Assembly: GCF_004209775.1 (NCBI RefSeq)
Contig: NZ_CP035914.1
Span: 310,001 to 374,000, forward strand
Source: Synechococcus sp. WH 8101
Lineage (GTDB): Bacteria > Cyanobacteriota > Cyanobacteriia > PCC-6307 > Cyanobiaceae
Direction of reading: 5' to 3'
DNA: 64,000 nucleotides
The notes beneath the pieces are model-generated. The model worked only from the letters and a program-made list of their open reading frames with translations, did not search any database and was not told where the DNA came from. The stretch's first letter is position 1. Every line of letters begins with the position of its first letter. Positions 9,730-24,331 of the stretch are shown in pieces. A program made the translations under genes and the position numbers.

Positions 9730-10170
9730 TCATCGCTCCGCTGCACGCAGTGGATTACAGAAGCGCAGGCCCGCGAAGCGGCGAAAATCGCTGTCAGCCG
9801 AGCAGAGCAGGCAGTTGTGCTCGATCGCCAGCGCAGCCAGGTGCGCATCACTGGTGCGATTGCCCGCCGTGCCAGCGTCCTGAAGCAGCAGGCGCAGTCG
9901 ATCCCAGTGTGTCCGGGACGGCTGCAGCACCTCTACCAGGGGATGCTGCAGCCAGCCTTCCACCAGATCCAGGGCTTGCTCAGGCTTGAGGGGGTGCAAC
10001 ATCAAGCGATGCTGGGTGCTGATGCACAGGACGGCTAACACCACGCTCCAGGGCAGAGCGATGGCTTCGTCGCCATTGAGCGTGGCTTCCAGCCAGGCCT
10101 TCGCGGCGCTGTGATGAGGAGTCTCCCTCAGCGACGCGTAGAGCCAGAGGTTGGTGTCGATCAGAATCAC
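9730..10170 (-). CDS. vapC: VapC-type PIN-domain toxin
   Basis: PIN-fold RNase toxin of a type II toxin-antitoxin pair. The 146-aa product begins with the PIN strand [12 protein letters not shown] (Asp5 acidic ligand), has a LPWSVVLAVL helix, and a DAHLAALAIEHNCLLCSADSDFRRF block carrying the other acidic residues. In the position where many VapC proteins carry a Glu (SVVxEVL) this one has Ala, which I recall as normal for the LPW subfamily. Start is a GTG at 10170 overlapping the antitoxin stop (GTGA, 4 bases). RNA target unknown. Confidence 0.88.
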   Translation of the reverse strand: MILIDTNLWLYASLRETPHHSAAKAWLEATLNGDEAIALPWSVVLAVLCISTQHRLMLHPLKPEQALDLVEGWLQHPLVEVLQPSRTHWDRLRLLLQDAGTAGNRTSDAHLAALAIEHNCLLCSADSDFRRFAGLRFCNPLRAAER

Positions 10171-10433
10171 CGGCTTTGGCGCAGCTTCTCGAGCAGCGCT
10201 TCATCTTCGAGGCCAGCGGCCAGCTGATTGGCTTTGCTGAGATCCACACCCGGTGCCAGGGCTCCGATCGAAAACGTCGGGCAGCGGTAGGGCTGGCGCT
10301 GGGGTGAGGCGGCCTGATGGAGGCCCGCCCGCAGCGTGTCATTCACCACTTGCTTGAACGGCTTGCCGCTGTCGAGCGCCTTCTGACGCAGCTGCCGGAG
10401 CAGAACGTCGTCGATACTGAGCGTGGTTCGCAT
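10167..10433 (-). CDS. vapB: VapB-type antitoxin (ribbon-helix-helix)
   Basis: An 88-aa partner of the PIN toxin. N-terminal ribbon-helix-helix: strand [15 protein letters not shown] followed by helices AKPFKQVV-like (here [16 protein letters not shown]), expected to dimerise on DNA and autoregulate the operon. The C-terminal part ([20 protein letters not shown]) would wrap the toxin. It precedes and overlaps vapC by 4 bases, the usual antitoxin-first arrangement. The strand is opposite to flanking fabI and hisB. Confidence 0.82.
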
Positions 10434-13777: not shown

Positions 13778-14506
13778 ATGCCTCCTCGTTCCCCCCTGTC
13801 TGTTGTGCCTCGGTTGCGCTTGTCTGGCTTTGCCGCGTTGTCGCTTCTTCCCGTGGTCGCCCTGCTGCCCCTGAAGGTTCAGGCCCAGGTGCGCCCCGCA
13901 GCCTGCGCTGGCACGGTGTTGGAGCTGCGTGTGCTGGAGCGGGGGCAGACCCGCACGGATCGTTTCCGCTTTGCCCTGCGCTTGGAGGCGGAGGGGGCCA
14001 CGACGGCGGCGGCACTGGATCAGCTCAACCAGCGGCTCGATGCGACACGCAAAGCGTTACAGGGGCTGGCGCAGGGACCGCTGACGATTCCGGCACCACG
14101 CACCTATGCCAGCGGCGGCGCCAGCCAGGGCCCGCGGCGTCGGCAGGCCAGCACCAGCATCAGCGGTGAGGTGGAGCGGGGCAGCTACGACCAGCTGATT
14201 CAGGTGGCTGGCCGGTTGCCCGGTGTTCGGCTTCAGGGCATCACCTCCTTGGCCTCAACCCAGAACCAGAACGCCTTGGCCGATCAGTTGCTGCAATCGG
14301 CCCTGAAGCAGGGACGGGAGCAGGCTGAGCGCACGGCAGCGGCGCTCGGCCTGCGGCGGGTGGCGCTGCTGCGGATCGATCAGCGTGGGAGTGGCACAGT
14401 GCGGCCCCTGGCCTTTGCCGCCAATGCGGGCCGTCAGTTCCGACCCGAGGAGGCGCCCCAGCCCAGTCAATCCCTGGAGTTGAATCTGGATTACTGCCTG
14501 TCCTGA
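13778..14506 (+). CDS. Secreted SIMPL-domain (DUF541) protein
   Basis: A 242-aa exported protein of the SIMPL/DUF541 family, whose biochemical role is not settled. N-terminus: basic residues, hydrophobic run (LSLLPVVALLPLKVQAQV) with an AxA-type signal peptidase site. Family features: GTVLELRVLERGQTRTDRF in place of the usual GxGxV opening, TAAALDQLNQRLDATRKALQ helix, and the QNQNALADQLLQSALKQGREQAERTAAALGLR helix pair (seen at about 150-185). The ATG at 13778 is chosen because it starts the signal peptide; the frame to 13388 is antisense to the HMA-like gene. Confidence 0.72.
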   Translation: MPPRSPLSVVPRLRLSGFAALSLLPVVALLPLKVQAQVRPAACAGTVLELRVLERGQTRTDRFRFALRLEAEGATTAAALDQLNQRLDATRKALQGLAQGPLTIPAPRTYASGGASQGPRRRQASTSISGEVERGSYDQLIQVAGRLPGVRLQGITSLASTQNQNALADQLLQSALKQGREQAERTAAALGLRRVALLRIDQRGSGTVRPLAFAANAGRQFRPEEAPQPSQSLELNLDYCLS

Positions 14507-14551
14507 TCGGTCCCGCCACAATGACCCTCAGCGGTTCGACTGCTGAACACC

Positions 14552-15751
14552 ATGCGCGCTCCGCTTCGCGCCCGTTTGCTCTGGTGGGTGAGTTTGGTGT
14601 TTGTGGCCTGGATGATCTGGGCGGAAACCAGCTTTCAGACCTACGACCGCTCGCTTGGGCAGGCCTTGAGTCTCACGCCCGCCCAGCTGGCTGCAATTGG
14701 CGGGGCTTTTCTGCTGCCCTACAGCCTGGTGCAGATTCCCGTGGGCTGGCTGCTCGATCGTTGGTCGGTGGAGCGGCTGCTGCTGCTGGGCGCCTTCACC
14801 GCAGCCGCCTGCAGCATCGGTTTCGCTCGTGCGGAGAGCTGGAACGCCTTGCTGTGGCACCGCTTCGGGCTCGGATTGAGCTGCGCGGTGGCCTTCCCGG
14901 CCTCCGGTCTGCTGGCGCGACGTTGCCTACCTCCTCAACGGTTTGCTCTCGCTATGGGAGCCACCGATAGTTTGTTGGGGTTCGGTGCGGTCGTGGCCGT
15001 GCTGATGCCGTTGCTGTTCGGCGGCCTGGGGTGGCGCCAACAGGTGTTGCTGCAGGCGATCGGCCTGATCGCCCTGGTGCTTGTGCCCCTGGCCTGCCTG
15101 CAGCAGCGCATAGCCATGGCCCCAGCCGCTGCGCTTGCGGCGTTGTCGTCGCAGCCTGCTCCAGATCGTCTGGTTACTCCAGATCGATGGACCTCCCGTG
15201 CCCGCCGCAAGGTGGCGCATGCGGCGGCGGTGTATGCCTGGGCCGGTGGGCTGCTGTTTGGGCTCGGGCAATACGGCCTTCTCTCTCAGCTGCAGCACTG
15301 GGGCGAGACGTTGATGCTCAACGTCACCCTGCTGCTTTCACTTGGGCTGGTGGCCGGCATGGTGCTGGCCGGTGCTCTGGGGGGTGTGCCTCACCGGCGC
15401 CGCACTCTGCTGCTGTGCGGGGCGTTGCTCACAGCGCTGGCGCTGGGTTGGCTGGTGCAAGGGGCTGACATTGCCTGGCAGCGCTTGATGGCTGGTGCTT
15501 TGTTCGGTCTTGGTCTCGGCCCTTGTGTGCTCGCTTTCCCGATGGCGGAGACGGCCGCGCCGGTGGGGCGGACCGCAATGGTCGTGGCGATGGTGAACAC
15601 CGCCGGTACGTTCAGCGGGGCGGTGATGACCCTCGTGTCGGGTTGGATGCTGCAACGGGCGGCCCAGGGTGAGCCGCCGCTGCTGTTGCCGATTTATGGC
15701 GCTCTGGCCCTGATGGGTGTGCTGTTGGCTTTGGCGGCCTCAAGACGGTGA
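14552..15751 (+). CDS. MFS transporter
   Basis: Major facilitator superfamily permease, 399 aa, about 12 membrane segments. The loop between segments 2 and 3 carries the family motif in the form GWLLDRWSVERLLLLG. A central basic loop near DRWTSRARRKVAH separates the two six-helix halves. Substrate cannot be deduced. It lies 45 bases after the SIMPL gene and its stop overlaps the convergent BCCT transporter gene by 12 bases (15740-15751). A link to the neighbouring solute operon is possible, but it is on the opposite strand. Confidence 0.85.
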   Translation: MRAPLRARLLWWVSLVFVAWMIWAETSFQTYDRSLGQALSLTPAQLAAIGGAFLLPYSLVQIPVGWLLDRWSVERLLLLGAFTAAACSIGFARAESWNALLWHRFGLGLSCAVAFPASGLLARRCLPPQRFALAMGATDSLLGFGAVVAVLMPLLFGGLGWRQQVLLQAIGLIALVLVPLACLQQRIAMAPAAALAALSSQPAPDRLVTPDRWTSRARRKVAHAAAVYAWAGGLLFGLGQYGLLSQLQHWGETLMLNVTLLLSLGLVAGMVLAGALGGVPHRRRTLLLCGALLTALALGWLVQGADIAWQRLMAGALFGLGLGPCVLAFPMAETAAPVGRTAMVVAMVNTAGTFSGAVMTLVSGWMLQRAAQGEPPLLLPIYGALALMGVLLALAASRR

Positions 15752-17317
15752 AGCCTCCTGTTGGCGCCATTCCTTCCAGGCCAGGCGTGGGGCGCTCCAG
15801 AGACTGGTGAGCACCAGGGGTGTCACGGGGACGGCTGTGATCACGATGAAGGCCTGCAGGGCATCGATCGAAGTGCTGTCGCCCAGGCCGCTGCCGATGC
15901 GCAGCAACACCAGAGTGAGGCTGCCGATCATCAGGGCCCAGAAGAGCCGCAGCAGCGCTGGTGGGGTACGTTGACCACTCACCACCATGGCGGCGGCATA
16001 ACTCATCGAGTCGGCGCTGGTGGCCATGAACAGCACCACCAGCACCAGGCCCACCGGAATCAGCAACCAGGCCAGGGGCAGCTGACCCAGGATCGCCAGC
16101 AGGGCCGCCGCCGCCCCGTTGTCGCTGAGCGGGCCGCTGATACTGCCGCTGTTGTTCAGCTCCAGGGCCATGCCGGTGCCCCCCAGCAGGGTGAACCAGA
16201 GATTGGTGACGATGGGGCAGAGGATGGCCACGGCCAGCACCAACTCCCGCACGCTGCGGCCGCGGCTGACGCCGGCGGTGAACAGGCCCATCAGGGGCGC
16301 GTAACCGAGAAACCAGCCCCAGTAGAAGACGGTCCAGCCATTCACCCAGTTGTCGGAGCGGCTGTTGGCCGCCAGGGCCATCTGGGGCAGGTTGAGCAGG
16401 TAGGTGCCGAAGGCGGTGAGGAAGTGGCGCATCAGCCACAGGCCCGGCCCCAGCAGCAGCAGTCCCGCGGCCATCGCCAGGGTGAGCCACACGTTCAGTT
16501 CCGAGAGCCATTTGATCCCGCGCTGAATGCCGCTCACCGTGGAGCTGGCGAAAATTGCGGTCAGCAGCACCACCACCAGCGATTGCAGGCTGGCGCTGTC
16601 TTGCAGCCCAGGCAGCTGACCGGCCGCATGGCTCAGTTGCAGGGAGAGGAAGCCGAGGGGGCCCACGGTGCCGGCGATCGCCGCCACCACCGACACCCCA
16701 TCGGCCAGATCCCCCATGCCGCCCTCGACCCAGGCCCTTGGCACCAGCCCCACCAGCAGCGATCGGGGCCGCAGCGGTTCGCCGCGACGCTCGCGAATCG
16801 AGAGGGTGATGGTGACCGTGGTCGCCACGAGCGCCCAGGCCAGAAACCCCCAGTGCAGAAAACTCACGGCCAGGGCTGGATCCACGGCCGCTGCCGTGGA
16901 TCCTTTGATGCCTGCGAAATAGGGCGCCGGCGTCTGGAAATGGAACAGGGGTTCGGCCGCCGACCAGAACACGCCACCGCCGGCCAACAGGGTGCAGATC
17001 AGAACGGCACACCAGTCGAAGAATTTCAGGCTCGGCTTGGCGTCAACGCCGCCCAGGCGCAGGCGGCCGATCGGACTGATCGCGAGCCCCACGGCGATCA
17101 GAAACAGCACCAAGGCCATCCACTGCCAGAGGCTGCCCAGCAGGGCACTGCTGAACGCTTTACCCGACTCGGTGAATGCTCTGGCGACCGCCAGGTCGGC
17201 CGCCGCCAGGATCAGAAAGAGCACCAGTGGAAGGGCCCCGATCCAGAGTGGGGGCTGGCGCCACCAGGGGCGCGGAACGTTGGGAGATGACGTCACGGAG
17301 TCAGGCGCGAACGGCAT
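15740..17317 (-). CDS. BCCT-family betaine-type transporter
   Basis: Secondary transporter of the betaine/choline/carnitine family, 525 aa, about 12 membrane helices. The third-helix glycine-rich segment reads GGGVFWSAAEPLFHF (canonical GIGLMFYGxxEPL). The substrate-binding Trp box reads YWGWFLGYAP where BetP has YWAWWISWSP: two of the four Trp positions are Phe and Tyr, still aromatic. GLFTAGVSRGRSVREL and the SADSMSYAAAMV segment are typical. The C-terminal tail is short, unlike the osmosensing tail of BetP. It is last in the four-gene operon; the ATG at 17317 overlaps the oxidase stop by 17 bases (a GTG at 17296 would avoid overlap). It probably moves the zwitterion made by the operon. Confidence 0.92.
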   Translation of the reverse strand: MPFAPDSVTSSPNVPRPWWRQPPLWIGALPLVLFLILAAADLAVARAFTESGKAFSSALLGSLWQWMALVLFLIAVGLAISPIGRLRLGGVDAKPSLKFFDWCAVLICTLLAGGGVFWSAAEPLFHFQTPAPYFAGIKGSTAAAVDPALAVSFLHWGFLAWALVATTVTITLSIRERRGEPLRPRSLLVGLVPRAWVEGGMGDLADGVSVVAAIAGTVGPLGFLSLQLSHAAGQLPGLQDSASLQSLVVVLLTAIFASSTVSGIQRGIKWLSELNVWLTLAMAAGLLLLGPGLWLMRHFLTAFGTYLLNLPQMALAANSRSDNWVNGWTVFYWGWFLGYAPLMGLFTAGVSRGRSVRELVLAVAILCPIVTNLWFTLLGGTGMALELNNSGSISGPLSDNGAAAALLAILGQLPLAWLLIPVGLVLVVLFMATSADSMSYAAAMVVSGQRTPPALLRLFWALMIGSLTLVLLRIGSGLGDSTSIDALQAFIVITAVPVTPLVLTSLWSAPRLAWKEWRQQEASPS

Positions 17318-18488
17318 CCCGCTGGTGGCTCCAGCAGGTGAGATCCACCGCCGGTGCGCGGCCCGACGCGAGTCGGGCGAGCGACTCACCGATCAGAGGC
17401 GCAAACTTGAAGGCCTGTCCGGAGCCGCCCGCGAACAGACTGAGGCTGGGGGTGAGTCGGTCGAGCACGAAATTCACATCGCTGGCCATGGAGTAAGGGC
17501 TGATCACGGTCTCCACCCGCTCCTGCACGCCCTCGAGTGCTTCGAACAGGAAGGTGTCGAGCAGTTCCAGAAGTCGAGTCGGTGCCTCCCGGGTCATCGC
17601 GTTGGGGTCCTGCACCCGCAGTGCTTCGGGAGCCCAGTCGATGCCCGCCTTGATTCGGGGTCGACCATCGGCGGTGGTGCTCAATACCGGGAAGCCGTAA
17701 TACAGGCCGCCGTCATCGCCCCGTTCCCGTTGGAAGCAGAACCATTGCGGATAGCGGTCGGCAAGGCCCGGATCCACGGTGTAGTGCGCCCAGAGCATGG
17801 GCCACACCTCCAGCTTCGGGGCGAGACCGAGGGGAGTGAGCAGTAACTGGCTCCAGATGCCACAGGCCACCACCACCTGATCAGCGCTGATGTGGCTGCC
17901 GTTCTCCAGGGTCACGCCTCCACCCTGGGCATCGATGCTGGCCACCGGGCAGTGTTCAACCAGTTGATGGCCGGCAGCGCGGGCGGTGCGGATCCAGTGG
18001 GCCACCACCTTGTCGCTGCGCACGGCCCCGGCGGTCGGTTCAAACAGGCCGGTGAAGTTGGGTTGCGGTCGGAGCGGGAAGCGGGCGGCGATCTCCTCCG
18101 CGTTCAACGCTTCATAGGGAATGCCTTGATCGTCCATCACCCGTTGGGCGCCGGGGATCGAACCCTCGATCGTCTCCTCCTCCCAGCTTTCGCCATAAAA
18201 CAGAAGGCCATGGGGTTCACGCAGCGCTTCGCCAGCGTGGCGTTCCTCCTCGCGCCAGAGCCGGTTGGCTTCCTGCGCCAGGCGGCAGAGCACGGGATCG
18301 GAATACATTTCCCGATACATGCGCGATTCACCGAAGCTGCTGGCCCCCGCATGGGCCAGTGTTCGCGCCTCCAGCAGCACCACATCGCCCACGCCCTGGC
18401 GGGCCAGGGCGGCTGCGCAGCTGAGGCCAGCCATGCCGCCGCCCACGATCACAACGGCAGCGCGCTCGGGGAGCGCGGTGATGGTCAT
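17301..18488 (-). CDS. FAD-dependent amine oxidase, MSOX/SolA/NikD/pipecolate-oxidase family
   Basis: A 395-aa flavin oxidase of the sarcosine/N-methyltryptophan/pipecolate oxidase family. Seen: dinucleotide motif VVIVGGGMAGLSCAAAL (GGGMAG at 16-21), SSFGESRMYREMY (51-62, the MSOX Arg region), YYGFP...RIKAGID with Lys280 at the place of the O2-activating Lys of MSOX, and GGSGQAFKFAPLIGE near the C-terminus. The Cys that covalently binds FAD in MSOX aligns with Ser330 (SPYSM), so FAD may be non-covalent. The family includes NikD, which oxidises piperideine-2-carboxylate to picolinate, a good match to the neighbours. The start overlaps the dehydrogenase stop by 4 bases (ATGA). Exact substrate is inference. 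Confidence 0.88.
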   Translation of the reverse strand: MTITALPERAAVVIVGGGMAGLSCAAALARQGVGDVVLLEARTLAHAGASSFGESRMYREMYSDPVLCRLAQEANRLWREEERHAGEALREPHGLLFYGESWEEETIEGSIPGAQRVMDDQGIPYEALNAEEIAARFPLRPQPNFTGLFEPTAGAVRSDKVVAHWIRTARAAGHQLVEHCPVASIDAQGGGVTLENGSHISADQVVVACGIWSQLLLTPLGLAPKLEVWPMLWAHYTVDPGLADRYPQWFCFQRERGDDGGLYYGFPVLSTTADGRPRIKAGIDWAPEALRVQDPNAMTREAPTRLLELLDTFLFEALEGVQERVETVISPYSMASDVNFVLDRLTPSLSLFAGGSGQAFKFAPLIGESLARLASGRAPAVDLTCWSHQRDAVRA

Positions 18489-19549
18489 GCTGCCTCTCCG
18501 AAACTGAGGCCGATGGGGTCAACGCCGCAACCGGCCGTGACCCGCTCGAGGGCAGCGTCAACGGTGAGTCCATCACCGCGTTGGGCCAGGAACTTGGTGG
18601 CCCGTTGCCGCACTGCATCGCGCACAAAGCGATACACCTCATCGGCTGTGGCCGATTTCCAGGCCTCGGGAGCGAAACGCTCGATCGAATCGGCAATCAC
18701 GGCGCCTGCATTCACCAGCGGATCCGGCAGCACCCGCACGCCGCGGCGGCGCAGGTCATCCGCCAGTTGGGGCTGCTGAAAGGGAGCGTTGGCCGCCGGC
18801 ACGATCGCCTTTACGGGCAGGGCCGAGGCCATCTCCACGTTGATCAGTCCGGAAATCGAGCAGGGAAGTAGCAGATCAAGCGTCAGCTCCCACCAGGGAC
18901 AGTCGAGCGGTAGCGGTGTGGCGCCAGCAAAACTGGCTCGCTCCCGGTCCACGTCAACGGTGAACACGGTCCAGCCATGGGCGACCAGCACCCGGGCGAC
19001 GGTGCCACCGACGGCGCCGCAGCCGTGCACCAGCGCGCGGCCGGGTCTGGCATCGTCTAATCCCTCACCCAGCACCGCTTCGACCGCCCCCAGGGTTCCA
19101 TGGGCCGTGGCGGCACTGGCATCCACAGGGCTGCCGACGGCGGCGAGCACATGGGGCGTCAACTCCGTCAGACGCTCCATGTCTTCCAGGCTGGTGTTGA
19201 GATCACAGCCGGTGATCATCGAACCATCCAGAGAGTCGAGCAGCGCTGCGGTCACGCTGATCAGTTCCTCTTTGACCGCTGCAGGTTCCGCGGCGCGGGC
19301 CACGATCTTGCCGCCGGCGAAACCGGTGCCATACAAATCATGTTTGTGGGTCATCAGGCCCGCGAGGCGCTCGCCATCGGCGATGCAGGCTTCGTCTGAG
19401 GGGTAATTGAGAAGGCGCAGGCCACCGTTGGCTGGCCGACCGGTGGTGGTGTCTTCGGCCACCACAAACACCGAGAGATGGTCGGAGACGTGCTCAGCCA
19501 ACACCGACACCGCAGTCGCGGTGGGTGTGGCGATGCTCGATGTGCTCAT
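18485..19549 (-). CDS. Glu/Leu/Phe/Val-type amino acid dehydrogenase
   Basis: NAD(P)-dependent oxidative deaminase of the leucine dehydrogenase group, 354 aa. Conserved catalytic layout: NGGLRLLNYPS (41-51), MTHK with Lys69 (substrate carboxylate), GGK with Lys81 (catalytic), and CDLNTS with Asp116; the spacing 69/81/116 equals the 68/80/115 of leucine dehydrogenase. The Rossmann motif is HGCGAVGG (175-182). All catalytic residues are present, so activity is likely, but the specificity pocket cannot be read by eye. In this operon a lysine alpha-deaminase role, giving piperideine-2-carboxylate, would fit. The start shares one base with the methyltransferase stop (TGATG) and the stop overlaps the oxidase start. 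Confidence 0.88.
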   Translation of the reverse strand: MSTSSIATPTATAVSVLAEHVSDHLSVFVVAEDTTTGRPANGGLRLLNYPSDEACIADGERLAGLMTHKHDLYGTGFAGGKIVARAAEPAAVKEELISVTAALLDSLDGSMITGCDLNTSLEDMERLTELTPHVLAAVGSPVDASAATAHGTLGAVEAVLGEGLDDARPGRALVHGCGAVGGTVARVLVAHGWTVFTVDVDRERASFAGATPLPLDCPWWELTLDLLLPCSISGLINVEMASALPVKAIVPAANAPFQQPQLADDLRRRGVRVLPDPLVNAGAVIADSIERFAPEAWKSATADEVYRFVRDAVRQRATKFLAQRGDGLTVDAALERVTAGCGVDPIGLSFGEAA

Positions 19550-20586
19550 CAGGCCAGCTTCTCCATCATTTGGTGGTGCTCGACGTAATCCAGGCTCCAG
19601 TCGCTCGGGGCTTCGGCAATGCGCTGTTCCAGGCGCTGATACACCGCGTCGGCCGCTGCGTCACCAGCGGCGTTGGCGAAGCTGTGCCGGCTCCAGCTGC
19701 GGATCGTGGCCATCAGGCCGGTGGCGAAGGCGGCGGTGTCGCCGTCAGTGTTCCAGCGCTGTCTGTAGGGGCAGCGCACGTGGACGGTGCGTTCATCCAC
19801 CAGGCGCAGGCCGTTGCGGTAAGGGGCCGAGCTGGCATCCTTCAGCGGCGCCATGAATTCCTCGGGCGACTTGTAGAAGTTCAGGATCGTGCCGTTGCGG
19901 TACTGCTCCTCGCTGATCACCTCCTCATCGGCGAGGCCCCGCCAGATGCGGTGCAGTTCATCGTGGACGTTGCGCGTTTCGCCACCGTTGTGGCCCAGAT
20001 AGCGGCCCTCTGAATCGCGGGAGAGGTTCACCGTCAGCAGCCTGCCTCCCGGTTGCAGTTCGCGGCTGCGCAGCTCGAGAATCGCTGTCCAGTCCTTCAG
20101 CGCCTGGGCGGTGAAGCGCTGCATTGCGTCGGCATCACCAGACGCGAGCACATGGGTGTGGTTGTGCAGTGGGCCTGGGGATTCGCTCAGCCAATGCATG
20201 GCGGTAGCTGAGAAACCGAAGCTCACGCTGTTTGGAGCCACCGAGGGCTCGTAGAAGCTGCGCGCACTCACCAGCACGGTGGGCTTCGGTGGCCTGGGGA
20301 TCTGGAGGGCCAGATTCGCCGCCAGAGCAATGTTGTCATTGCTGGGTAGATCGTTTCCGATCAGCGTCAGGTGGGCGTTCGGCTGCTGGGTGTGGAGGTG
20401 ATCGAGCACCTGATTCCAGAGGCCAACGGCGGTACCGCCATCGGCAGCGCCGTAATCGATCAGAACGTGGTGGTTCTGGTGGGGAAGTTGTTCAACACAA
20501 GTCAAGGCCCAGTCGGAGGCGGCATCGATGCAGAGACGTGCGCCTTCGGTCTGTGCGCTGTAACCCGTGGTCATGGCAATGGCCAT
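19549..20586 (-). CDS. SABATH-family SAM-dependent methyltransferase
   Basis: A 345-aa enzyme of the SABATH family (Methyltransf_7), best known in plants for carboxyl methylation of salicylate/jasmonate and N-methylation in caffeine and trigonelline synthesis. Signature pieces: DYGAADGGTAVGLW (44-57, SAM motif I), LIGNDLPSND (75-84), SARSFYEPSVAPNSVSF (107-123), the diagnostic ATAMHWLSESP (127-137), and ELQPGGRLLTVNLSR. First gene of the operon. The ATG at 20586 is preferred because GAGG lies 3 bases upstream; a second ATG is 12 bases further in. An inverted repeat lies 41 bases upstream. N-methylation of a pyridine carboxylate would fit the context; acceptor is unproven. Confidence 0.82.
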   Translation of the reverse strand: MAIAMTTGYSAQTEGARLCIDAASDWALTCVEQLPHQNHHVLIDYGAADGGTAVGLWNQVLDHLHTQQPNAHLTLIGNDLPSNDNIALAANLALQIPRPPKPTVLVSARSFYEPSVAPNSVSFGFSATAMHWLSESPGPLHNHTHVLASGDADAMQRFTAQALKDWTAILELRSRELQPGGRLLTVNLSRDSEGRYLGHNGGETRNVHDELHRIWRGLADEEVISEEQYRNGTILNFYKSPEEFMAPLKDASSAPYRNGLRLVDERTVHVRCPYRQRWNTDGDTAAFATGLMATIRSWSRHSFANAAGDAAADAVYQRLEQRIAEAPSDWSLDYVEHHQMMEKLA

Positions 20587-20626
20587 AGACCTCGTCAGCG
20601 ACAGGGTTCACCGTACAGGGTGGGTC

Positions 20627-20644
20627 TGTCAGGGCTTCGTGACA
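20627..20644. promoter_or_regulatory. Inverted repeat TGTCA-N8-TGACA upstream of the SABATH operon
   Basis: A perfect 5+5 base inverted repeat with an 8-base centre lies 41 bases upstream of the methyltransferase ATG, in the only non-coding gap (20587-20674) before the operon. Spacing suits a dimeric regulator. A weak -10-like TACGGT (minus strand, near 20609-20614) lies between it and the start. No factor can be named; short repeats of this size also occur by chance. Confidence 0.35.
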
Positions 20645-20674
20645 GAGAACACGCTGCGATGCTCCCTGCAGATC

Positions 20675-21262
20675 TCAACCCTGCTGGAGAAGTTGCTGCA
20701 GCTGGGGCTCCAAGAGGGCGAAGGCCCGGCCGCGATGTCCGTGACATCTCTTCTCCTCGAGGCTCATCTCGGCAAAGGTCAATCCGGTGCTGGCGACTTC
20801 AAAGATCGGGTCGTAGCCGAACCCTTGGTCGCCGCGGGGGGCTGTGGTGATGCGTCCGGGACAGCGACCTTCCACTTCGGCCAGAACGCGACCATCGGGT
20901 GCGGCAATGCAAAGGGCGGCACTGAAGTGTGCGGCTCGATCGGACCGGGATTCAAGGGCGTTGAGGAGACGCTCAATCCGTTCCGGGTCGCTGGGGGCGT
21001 AGCGGGCCGAGTAGACGCCGGGAGCACCTCCGAGGGCTTCCACCGCCAGGCCGGAATCGTCGGCGAGAGCCCAGTGGCCCGTGGCGGCTGCCACGGCGCA
21101 GGCTTTGAGACGGGCATTGGCAGCAAATGTGGTGCCGGTCTCTTCCACCTCGAGATCCTCAGGCTGGGCCTCGATCGTGACGGGCAGGGCGTCCAGCAGA
21201 CGGGCAAATTCGCGGAGCTTGCCGGCGTTGCCGCTGGCGATCACCAAGGTGCGCTGGCTCAT
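20675..21262 (-). CDS. rdgB: dITP/XTP pyrophosphatase (RdgB/HAM1)
   Basis: House-cleaning enzyme that hydrolyses deaminated purine nucleoside triphosphates. 195 aa from the ATG at 21262 (MSQRTLVIASGNAGK); the frame extension to 21340 lies in the neighbouring gene. Family motifs: ASGNAGKLREF (substrate loop), ETGTTFAANARLKA, ADDSGLAVEALGGAPGVYSARYA and GFGYDPIF. It follows the phosphohexomutase by 5 bases and precedes the SABATH operon by 88 bases, so read-through into that operon is possible. Confidence 0.95.
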   Translation of the reverse strand: MSQRTLVIASGNAGKLREFARLLDALPVTIEAQPEDLEVEETGTTFAANARLKACAVAAATGHWALADDSGLAVEALGGAPGVYSARYAPSDPERIERLLNALESRSDRAAHFSAALCIAAPDGRVLAEVEGRCPGRITTAPRGDQGFGYDPIFEVASTGLTFAEMSLEEKRCHGHRGRAFALLEPQLQQLLQQG

Positions 21263-21267
21263 CGTGA

Positions 21268-22737
21268 TCAAACCGACGTCGCAACGGCGCGGGCCCAAGC
21301 GAGCACCTCGGCCACCCGTGCTTCGTCTGGGCCTTCGCAATAAAGGCGCAGCAACGGTTCGGTGCCCGAGAAGCGCAGCATCAACCAGTGACTGGGCCCC
21401 AGTCGCAGCTTCACACCATCGGTGCGGATCACCTCTTGAACAGGGGCTCCCGCCACCTCCTCCGGCGGCTGTTCTGCCAGCAGGGTCTCCAGGCGCCGGC
21501 GGCAGCCCATGTCGGCCAGGCGCAGATCGAGCCGGTCGTAGTGGCTGGCGCCGCCACAGCGCTGCTGCAGGGCGTGGATCCTCGCGCCTAGGGGTTGGCC
21601 GCCTTCCACCAGGGCTTCCAGCACCAGCAAGGCTGCAAACAGGGCGTCCCGCTCAGGAAGATGCATGCCGAAGCCCACGCCTCCGGACTCCTCTCCACCG
21701 ATCAGCACCTCGCCAGCCAGCATCTCGGCGGCGATGTATTTGAAACCCACGGGCAGTTCAAGCACCTCGCGGCCCAGGTCTTCCGCCACCAGCCGCATCA
21801 GATCGGAACCACTCACGGTTTTCACCACGGAGCCGGGGAGTTGTCGGGCTCGGGCCAGGTGGTCAATGAGCAACGGCATCAGCTGCTGGGTGCTGCAGAA
21901 CCGCCCCTGTTCATCCACGGCGGCGATGCGATCACCATCGCCATCGAAGACCAGGCCAACTGCGTGCTGGCCCTCTGCGGCTGCTCCCTTCACCGCGGCG
22001 ATCAGATCGCCCAGGTAGGGAGCGAGTGGTTCGGGTGGGTGACCTCCGAAGAGGGGATCGCGCTGACTGCGGATTTCCTGCACCAGCTGGTGATCGCCGA
22101 CCCCATCGCCGAGTAGTTCGGCCACGCAGCCTGCCGCCGAGCCATGCATCGGATCCACGATCACGCGCAGATTCATCGCCTCCAGGCCGCGACAGAGGGC
22201 GGGCAGATCCAGCTTGCGGCGCAGCCCATCGAGATGCTCGCCTCTCCCGTCGAATCGGGGGGTCTCCCCTCCAACGGGTGGGGTGATGCCACCGGCGCGC
22301 AGACGCTGTTCCACGGCCGCCGTGAAATCCCCTTCCACGGAGCCGCCGAACGGACCTTTGATTTTCAGCCCCAGCCACTCGGGCGGGTTGTGGCTGGCGG
22401 TGATCACCAGGGCGCCGAGGGCCTGGCGCTGGACCACCGCCCAGCTGCAGGCCGGCGTGGGAACGGCGGTGTCGGTGAGCAGGGGCTCAAGGCCGCAGCC
22501 ACGGACGGCGGCGGCGATCGCCGCCGCCAGCTCAGGGGCGAGAAAGCGGCGGTCGTAGCCGATCACCACGGTGCGGCTGCGCAAGCCGTCGGGCGCCCGA
22601 GCAGCCAGCTCCTGGGCTGAAGCGGCCGCCACTGGCAACAGGCGCTCCACGGTGATGTCCACGCCGAGGATGCCGCGCCAGCCATCGGTGCCGAACTTGA
22701 TCGGAGCAGCAGCCAGAGGCAGGGGAGCGGAGGCCAT
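21268..22737 (-). CDS. Phosphoglucomutase/phosphomannomutase family protein
   Basis: Alpha-D-phosphohexomutase interconverting hexose 1- and 6-phosphates. 489 aa from the ATG at 22737, just before the KFGTDGWRG opening. The four active-site loops are visible: TASHNP with the phosphoserine, FDGDGDRI metal loop, GGEESGG sugar-binding loop and RFSGTEP phosphate-binding loop. Exact sugar specificity (glucose, mannose or glucosamine) is not decided by these motifs. Divergent from the TM0106-type nuclease; 5 bases from rdgB. Confidence 0.92.
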   Translation of the reverse strand: MASAPLPLAAAPIKFGTDGWRGILGVDITVERLLPVAAASAQELAARAPDGLRSRTVVIGYDRRFLAPELAAAIAAAVRGCGLEPLLTDTAVPTPACSWAVVQRQALGALVITASHNPPEWLGLKIKGPFGGSVEGDFTAAVEQRLRAGGITPPVGGETPRFDGRGEHLDGLRRKLDLPALCRGLEAMNLRVIVDPMHGSAAGCVAELLGDGVGDHQLVQEIRSQRDPLFGGHPPEPLAPYLGDLIAAVKGAAAEGQHAVGLVFDGDGDRIAAVDEQGRFCSTQQLMPLLIDHLARARQLPGSVVKTVSGSDLMRLVAEDLGREVLELPVGFKYIAAEMLAGEVLIGGEESGGVGFGMHLPERDALFAALLVLEALVEGGQPLGARIHALQQRCGGASHYDRLDLRLADMGCRRRLETLLAEQPPEEVAGAPVQEVIRTDGVKLRLGPSHWLMLRFSGTEPLLRLYCEGPDEARVAEVLAWARAVATSV

Positions 22738-22801
22738 GGGCTGCTGGTGACAGGGAGTCTCTGAACAGGGATCTAGCAGCTGGCCGCCGTAACGTCGTTT
22801 C

Positions 22802-24331
22802 ATGGGTGACACCCCTGCTGCTGACAAGCCCGAAGGGCGGGTGCTGAGTGATCGCCTGCTGCGCAGCTGGTTGCGCTGCCGGCGTCGCGCCTGGCTCGAT
22901 CGGTACGGCGATCCCGTTGACCGTCGTTATACGGCCCATCGCACCCTCCAGCTCGATGATCAGCAGCGCTGTTTCGTGGCCCTGCTTCCGGAGAAGCCAC
23001 GCCACGGTCTGCGGGCGATGGAAGCGGGCGCGGCCTCTGTGGTGGGGGTGCGCCTGCGCGGTCAGGGGCCGCAGGGCTGGGTGCTCGAGTGCCACCCGGC
23101 CCTACTGCAGCGGGTGCCGGGCCAGAGTCGCTGGGGCGGTTTCGCCTACCGGCCGGTGTTGGCGCGCCAGGGGCGTCGCCTGACCCGCGAGCATCGATTG
23201 CCTCTGGCCCTGGCCGGGCGGCTACTGGCTCCTCTTCAAGCAGCGGCCGTCCCGGAGGCGTTGGCGGTGGCCGGCGCCGGGCGCCGCCTGGAGGCCGAGC
23301 GTCTGCCCCTCAGCCATGGCCTGCAGAGTCAGTTGGATGAGGCCCTCCGCAAGCTGGCGCAGGATCTGCAGCGGGACGCCTTGCCGCCCCTGGCGGCGGA
23401 TCGGCGCAAATGCACGCTGTGTAGCTGGCGTGGCGTCTGCAATCGGGAGGCGGCAGAGCAGGGGCACCTCAGCGAGGTGAGCGGCATCGGTGCCAAGCGT
23501 CGGGAGATGCTGCAAGAGCTCGGGTTCGCCGGGCTCGCCGATCTGGCGGCTGCTGACCCGAAGCAGCTCGCGGCACGCTTGGAGCGCTTCGGTGAGCAGC
23601 ACGGAGCGATGGCCGAACCCCTCGTGGCCCAGGCCCGGGCCCAGCGGGATGGACGGGTGGAACATCTCGATCCCCGGCCCGCGTTGCCGGAGCTGACCCA
23701 CGCCCCCGGAGTGCTGCTCTACGACATCGAATCAGATCCGGATGCCCGCGATGACTTTCTGCATGGTTTTCTGCGGCTTCCCCGCGATCCCGCCGGTGGC
23801 TGGGCACTGGAGCAGGCGCGCTATCACCCGCTGCTGACGCTCCAGGAGCAGGGGGAGCGGCCCTGCTGGCGGCGGCTCGAGCGCCTGCTCGATCGCTACG
23901 GCGACTGGCCCGTGCTCCATTACGGCGAAACCGAATCCCTGGCCTTGAGGCGGATGGCCCAGCGCCAGGGGGTGGGCGAGGCGGGGCAGGCCGCCATCCG
24001 GGCGCGGCTGGTGGATGTGCATGAACGGGTGCGCCGCCACTGGCGCCTGCCTCTGAACAGCTATGGCCTCAAAACGGTGGCGGCCTGGCGGGGATTCCGC
24101 TGGCGGCAGCCGGGGGTGGACGGGGCGCGGGCCCTGCTCTGGTGGCGGCAGTGGCGGGGCTCCGGTCGCCAGGACCGCGGCCACGTGCAGGCGTTGCGCT
24201 GGATCTTTGCCTACAACCACGACGACAACCTGGCCACCTGGGCTGTGGCGCAATGGCTGTCAGAGCAAGACAGCCTGATGACTCAGGACGATTCCGCCAG
24301 ATCGCGGAACCCCGTTGGTGGCGAGATCTGA
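22802..24331 (+). CDS. TM0106-type RecB-like nuclease with Fe-S cysteines and RNase H-like domain
   Basis: Putative nuclease, 509 aa. The N-terminal half resembles Cas4/RecB-type PD-(D/E)XK proteins: first Cys in SWLRCRRRAWLDRYGD (about 22-37) and a distal CTLCSWRGVC cluster (about 203-212), together a four-Cys [4Fe-4S]-like set. Then a helix-hairpin-helix (VSGIGAKRREMLQELG). The C-terminal half resembles the YprB RNase H-like domain, starting LLYDIESDPD with acidic residues, then VLHYGETESLAL. No Cas genes or repeats are near. Its last 49 bases overlap the convergent ygfZ gene. Cellular role unknown. Confidence 0.82.
   Translation: MGDTPAADKPEGRVLSDRLLRSWLRCRRRAWLDRYGDPVDRRYTAHRTLQLDDQQRCFVALLPEKPRHGLRAMEAGAASVVGVRLRGQGPQGWVLECHPALLQRVPGQSRWGGFAYRPVLARQGRRLTREHRLPLALAGRLLAPLQAAAVPEALAVAGAGRRLEAERLPLSHGLQSQLDEALRKLAQDLQRDALPPLAADRRKCTLCSWRGVCNREAAEQGHLSEVSGIGAKRREMLQELGFAGLADLAAADPKQLAARLERFGEQHGAMAEPLVAQARAQRDGRVEHLDPRPALPELTHAPGVLLYDIESDPDARDDFLHGFLRLPRDPAGGWALEQARYHPLLTLQEQGERPCWRRLERLLDRYGDWPVLHYGETESLALRRMAQRQGVGEAGQAAIRARLVDVHERVRRHWRLPLNSYGLKTVAAWRGFRWRQPGVDGARALLWWRQWRGSGRQDRGHVQALRWIFAYNHDDNLATWAVAQWLSEQDSLMTQDDSARSRNPVGGEI

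Follow-up and report, generated by a model that had tools for sequence, protein, structure and literature searches.

In this study, we have analyzed a 64,000-nucleotide stretch of Synechococcus sp. WH 8101 (contig NZ_CP035914.1, positions 310,001 to 374,000; here called the window), from a genome of 2,630,292 bases in a single contig, and conclude that an operon within it probably makes homarine (N-methylpicolinate) from lysine. An earlier note, made from the sequence alone, had described four overlapping genes on one strand, encoding a SABATH-type methyltransferase (MT), a Leu/Glu-type amino acid dehydrogenase (DH), an oxidase of the MSOX/NikD family (OX), and a BCCT-family transporter. Open reading frames and Pfam families agree with this description, and the junctions can be read in the sequence as TGATG from MT to DH and ATGA from DH to OX, while the ATG start codon of the BCCT gene, at 17317, gives this gene a 17-base overlap with OX, whose stop codon ends at position 17301. 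These are known kinds of enzyme in a combination that we have not found described.

From the enzyme families and their residues, we infer a route of four steps. DH would oxidatively deaminate the alpha-amino group of lysine, and the resulting keto acid would cyclize to piperideine-2-carboxylate; OX, judging by its likeness to NikD, would use oxygen to turn this compound into picolinate; MT would then move the methyl group of S-adenosylmethionine (SAM) onto the ring nitrogen of picolinate; and the BCCT protein may import or retain the homarine, Prochlorococcus lacking a BCCT gene at the locus. The same route had been proposed in the earlier note, and the proposal is supported in part, by NikD-specific residues in OX, by the lack in MT of a Gln typical of O-methyltransferases, by a conserved three-gene core, and by strain WH7803. 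The accompanying claim of intact catalytic residues had to be corrected, since OX lacks both the flavin-attaching Cys and the Trp355 of NikD, and DH lacks the Asn262 of leucine dehydrogenase (LeuDH).

The genes are tightly linked well beyond the window. We collected 73 loci with an MT at least 45% identical to that of the window and kept the 66 with more than 3.8 kb of downstream sequence, dropping seven shorter ones; because the loci were picked for carrying MT, some genomes entered twice (e.g., L031 and L118), and the species are related, these are 66 loci rather than 66 independent events. The order and strand of MT, DH, and OX were kept in all 66, which came from Synechococcus, some Prochlorococcus, and a Myxococcales metagenome-assembled genome (MAG), and MT and DH overlapped by 1 base in 52 loci and by 4 bases in 14. 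With order, strand, and overlap kept throughout, the junctions are beyond chance. A BCCT gene follows OX in 51 of the 66, including the myxobacterium; in the remaining 15, all of which are Prochlorococcus type (13 distinct genomes), the examined flank showed no BCCT homologue. Among the Prochlorococcus loci, L061, L063-L071, and L074 have no BCCT gene nearby, the regions upstream of the cluster differ between L061 and L066, and tRNA genes lie upstream of it in L061 and L069.

By sequence E value and by fold score, NikD is the solved protein closest to OX. Its best sequence match in the PDB is NikD (2oln, E value of 5.4e-36), and when predicted models were compared by fold (scored here as VIA Z), four NikD entries led, with Z scores of 36.9 to 37.2 (3hzl at 37.2) and 30 to 31% identity, ahead of MSOX (1zov, Z of 35.5, 25% identity). 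Five OX residues, R59, E108, Y264, D284, and K361, correspond to R53, E101, Y258, D276, and K358 of NikD in 51/51 orthologs, the pairing of D284 with D276 following the phmmer register, as MAFFT shifts that loop. Four of these NikD residues (R53, E101, D276, and K358) we take to belong to the active site. R53, Y258, and K358 are common to MSOX; E101 and D276 are not, since the MSOX row has Ala at the first position and Asn at the second, the latter read from a His269Asn mutant chain. A further residue, K280 (51/51 orthologs), aligns with MSOX Lys265, presumably the oxygen-activating Lys of that enzyme. OX and NikD thus share best sequence match, top fold score, five residues, and proposed reaction; they differ in that NikD has the flavin Cys, Trp355, and Arg272, where OX has no Cys, Gln, and Lys (K280, by the phmmer register). 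NikD, which we assume acts in the nikkomycin pathway with NikC as its partner, is paired with an aminotransferase, whereas OX is paired with a dehydrogenase.

DH belongs to the Glu/Leu/Phe/Val dehydrogenases: like LeuDH, the tryptophan dehydrogenase ScyB, and glutamate dehydrogenase, it combines the two Pfam domains with the conserved residues Lys, Lys, and Asp (K69, K81, and D116, each in 68/68 relatives). It scored 91.9 bits against the NCBIfam equivalog model for ScyB, for which the cut-off is 600 bits. At or near the pocket, whose positions we assign from presumed roles in the known enzymes, DH differs from LeuDH: LeuDH Leu40 is replaced by Asn (N41, in 67/68, with one X), LeuDH Ala113 is replaced by Gly (G114, 68/68), and the residue printed as LeuDH Asn262 is Ala in 64 and Gly in 4 of the 68 sequences, while Asn254 of DH aligns with an Asn of the printed glutamate dehydrogenases. 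Asp287, also kept in 68/68, probably occupies the pocket position of LeuDH V294 or the corresponding Ser of glutamate dehydrogenase; there is no gap there in MAFFT, in the phmmer alignments to 6acf and 7vid, or in four printed glutamate dehydrogenase rows. Polarity and an Asp in the pocket would favor a substrate with a basic side chain, lysine for example.

MT scored 75.4 bits against Methyltransf_7, for which the curated cut-off is 29.8 bits, and its predicted model (mean predicted local distance difference test score [pLDDT] of 92.5) has the SABATH fold. The best fold match was the fatty acid O-methyltransferase FAMT (5f2k, Z of 40.0), and the tea N-methyltransferase CkTcS reached 35.9; the top 13 entries, which we take to be SABATH enzymes, spanned Z scores of 30.6 to 40.0, and the next entry scored 19.6. 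In common with the salicylate, loganate, and fatty acid O-methyltransferases and the xanthine N-methyltransferases, whose Pfam family and fold it shares, MT has a Trp at the position of Trp151 in the salicylate enzyme SAMT (102/102 relatives). It differs from SAMT, LAMT, and FAMT, however, at SAMT Gln25: these three O-methyltransferases have Gln there (two further solved O-methyltransferases, 8wwq and 3b5i, and the solved member 8uzd were outside the comparison), and MT has Ala16, as do 102/102 relatives, the proteobacterial branch included. Counted from a common Tyr, four plant N-methyltransferases also have other residues, Asn in XMT and DXMT and Thr in CkTcS and CkTbS. A quick tree built from 50 rows placed the MT sequences of the cyanobacteria, the myxobacterium, and "Candidatus Electrothrix gigas" together on the same side of a branch whose Shimodaira-Hasegawa-like approximate likelihood ratio test (SH-aLRT) value was 100, the myxobacterial and Electrothrix rows being flagged for long branches.

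The transporter matches the BCCT family over its full length (424.5 bits, with a cut-off of 27), as do BetP, DddT, and the trimethylamine transporter; the last (8zw8) is its best PDB match, followed by DddT and BetP. F360 and Y363 (numbered in the 549-residue open reading frame that starts at 17389) are present in 27/27 sequences. The motif reads FYWAWW in 8zw8 and DddT versus FYWGWF in the family of the window transporter, with the Phe in 27/27.

Homarine is widespread in ocean particles as a nitrogen osmolyte, for which reported levels were later cut 25-fold (PMC8269262; PMC10134881). Heal et al. (PMC8269262) report homarine from two Synechococcus strains, WH8102 and WH7803, whose cultures are described as axenic; the corrected levels are up to 18 mM and approximately 0.2 mM, respectively (PMC10134881). 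WH7803 carries an intact cluster (L031), so that in this one strain the cluster and reported homarine occur together. The MT genes of the window and WH7803 differ mostly at third codon positions (11.3, 7.5, and 42.6% at positions 1, 2, and 3). The genes for homarine synthesis were said to be unknown in two papers from 2021 (PMC8269262 and PMC8269247). Our search of the literature naming homarine or N-methylpicolinate, which excluded preprints and most subscription journals, found no biosynthesis gene set, and literature on NikD, salt, and the annotation names yielded nothing on the four-gene cluster.

Several observations weigh against this assignment. Identity to OX in the fold alignment is higher for a sarcosine oxidase (7exs, 34%, Z of 34.2) than for NikD (30 to 31%), and NikD is ahead of MSOX by just 1.7 Z units. 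The position of E108 in space is unconfirmed because it lies in a loop (residues 104 to 112) with a pLDDT below 50, in a model with a mean of 78. The flavin-attaching C315 of MSOX corresponds to Ser330 of OX in 50/51 orthologs and to Asn in one, the position of the covalent-flavin Cys321 of NikD is Val328 or Ser330 depending on the register, and NikD Trp355 is Gln358 in 51/51. Among NCBIfam models, the top score is that of N-methyl-L-tryptophan oxidase, at 185.3 bits for a cut-off of 257. Because the flavin Cys is lost and Trp355 is Gln, OX cannot be equated with NikD and is better called NikD-like; by analogy, it would work like NikD without being the same enzyme. For DH, phmmer with 8gxd and 3vpx, as well as hhalign, inserts two residues and places D287 two residues later; a firm equation with LeuDH V294 was dropped, and the placement is only probable because the registers disagree. 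The nearest solved relative of MT is a fatty acid O-methyltransferase, and Ala16 is found too in a proteobacterial branch without an assigned function. Finally, the amount of homarine is not fixed by the cluster alone, because WH7803 contains approximately 0.2 mM and WH8102 18 mM, and in a shrimp, homarine was reported to come from quinolinate (work cited in PMC8269262).

MT has a second context, in the genome of "Ca. Electrothrix gigas," where the genes for NadA, an MT that is 39% identical, a P-type ATPase, and NadB lie in a row (L073:5865-11971); the MT gene starts 8 bases past that of NadA, and NadB follows 2.3 kb farther on. NadA and NadB together make the pyridine acid quinolinate. This genome is the only one among 146 of its order with MT; it has two NadA genes, the second elsewhere, and NadB is over the cut-off only in the MT cluster. 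In 37 other genomes there was no close relative of the MT-linked NadA; full-length matches of 37 to 43% identity were found in 28, and the best partial match reached 46%. We considered the linked NadA as a dedicated extra copy and rejected this, as 28 of the 37 carry a full-length NadA of its type; the other NadA of Electrothrix (G583) matches the linked one only in pieces. Since the sole NadB must also serve NAD synthesis and the linked NadA type is common in the order, the neighborhood may be housekeeping, which again counts against our interpretation. The context suggests that enzymes of the MT branch may act on pyridine carboxylates, although the neighborhood could have arisen by chance. 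We tentatively suggest, as a rather doubtful extension, that one MT branch makes pyridine betaines both from lysine (DH and an OX without covalent flavin, in picocyanobacteria and the myxobacterium) and from quinolinate (NadA and NadB, in the cable bacterium), in which case some high-light Prochlorococcus would also make homarine.

The Electrothrix genes could feed nicotinate or quinolinate to MT, and the specificity of MT for a pyridine acid is itself inferred from families and residues; the product of the operon might be a different N-methylated cyclic amino acid or a different pyridine betaine, such as N-methylpipecolate or trigonelline, reached by the same logic of deamination, ring oxidation, and methylation. 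Homarine is, however, what both Synechococcus strains are reported to contain (PMC8269262). Furthermore, alpha-deamination of lysine and a NikD-like oxidase would lead to picolinate rather than nicotinate, and OX matches NikD at E101 and D276. We regard a different betaine as unlikely.

The operon can also be envisioned as catabolic: MSOX and MTOX are enzymes that remove the methyl group from N-methyl amino acids, and here the BCCT protein might import a methylated solute, OX demethylate or oxidize it as a sarcosine-like amine, and DH recover the nitrogen. The presence of a transporter gene, the alignment of K280 with MSOX Lys265, and the identity to 7exs fit such a role, but every counted locus opens with the gene of a SAM-dependent methyltransferase, NikD leads by both E value and Z score, and the 15 Prochlorococcus-type loci, which yielded no BCCT homologue in the examined flank, weaken the idea; we consider it improbable. 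Least probable of all is that MT is a carboxyl O-methyltransferase that converts picolinate, or some other acid, to its methyl ester, as the best solved relatives of MT would suggest, given the Ala in place of the SAMT, LAMT, and FAMT Gln in all 102 relatives and the betaine-type transporter beside MT in 51 of 66 loci.

Of the 400 genomes in the family, 72 have a match to MT, spread over 7 of 59 genera; two of these matches (G102 and G194, from one genus) are distant, at 24 to 25% identity. Among the same-genus genomes listed, 30 of 31 have MT. In genus g5, 28 of 34 genomes have MT, exactly the same 28 have a strong OX match, and the other six have neither, including the near-complete G225 (99%) and G267 (98%). 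In the Prochlorococcus-type genus g18, the cluster is patchy, as MT was found in 13 of 249 genomes (5 of the 83 better ones). Among the best 80 of 173 MT relatives in a scan of named genomes were those of WH7803, RCC307, other Synechococcus strains, Prochlorococcus MIT9401, MIT9201, and HNLC1/2, the Myxococcales MAG, "Ca. Electrothrix gigas," and more distant proteobacterial rows. No relative of MT or DH was found in viral contigs. A frameshift interrupts MT in Synechococcus G242 (L120, at about residue 109) and G231 (L119, at about residue 154), and the OX of G112 is spread over two frames, possibly through sequencing error in each case. The idea can be tested directly on such variants found in nature, whether near-complete genomes that lack the cluster or frameshifted MT genes, and with a marker gene, homarine makers could be recognized in metagenomes and transcriptomes and Prochlorococcus strains singled out for testing.

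Another 35 loci (L076-L110), from Mesorhizobium, Phreatobacter, and other bacteria, carry an MT-like gene 34 to 38% identical to MT that falls on a separate tree branch. No homologue of the window DH, OX, or BCCT was found in their examined flank, which is short for some loci, and they were left out of functional inference.

Table. Genes of the candidate homarine operon and its downstream neighbor (window coordinates)
Feature	Position	Strand	Remarks
MT, SABATH-type methyltransferase; candidate picolinate N-methyltransferase	19549..20586	-	Pfam Methyltransf_7, E 6e-21
DH, Leu/Glu-type amino acid dehydrogenase; candidate lysine alpha-deaminating enzyme	18485..19549	-	ELFV_dehydrog, 3.6e-15; ELFV_dehydrog_N, 1.6e-6
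OX, MSOX/NikD-family flavoprotein; candidate piperideine-2-carboxylate to picolinate oxidase	17301..18488	-	Pfam DAO, 3.7e-48
BCCT-family transporter; candidate betaine (homarine) carrier	15740..17317	-	Pfam BCCT, 5.8e-127
MFS transporter gene	14552-15751		Convergent; downstream neighbor of the operon

Upstream, the operon is bordered by a Ham1-type gene (by Pfam), and no RNA element above the Rfam thresholds was found at positions 14000-22900. Counterparts of the MFS gene, at 46 to 54% identity, occur in only some of the relatives' loci. Farther away, at 9730-10433, a PIN-like gene and a small upstream partner resemble, by eye and with no family search made, a VapBC-type toxin-antitoxin pair.

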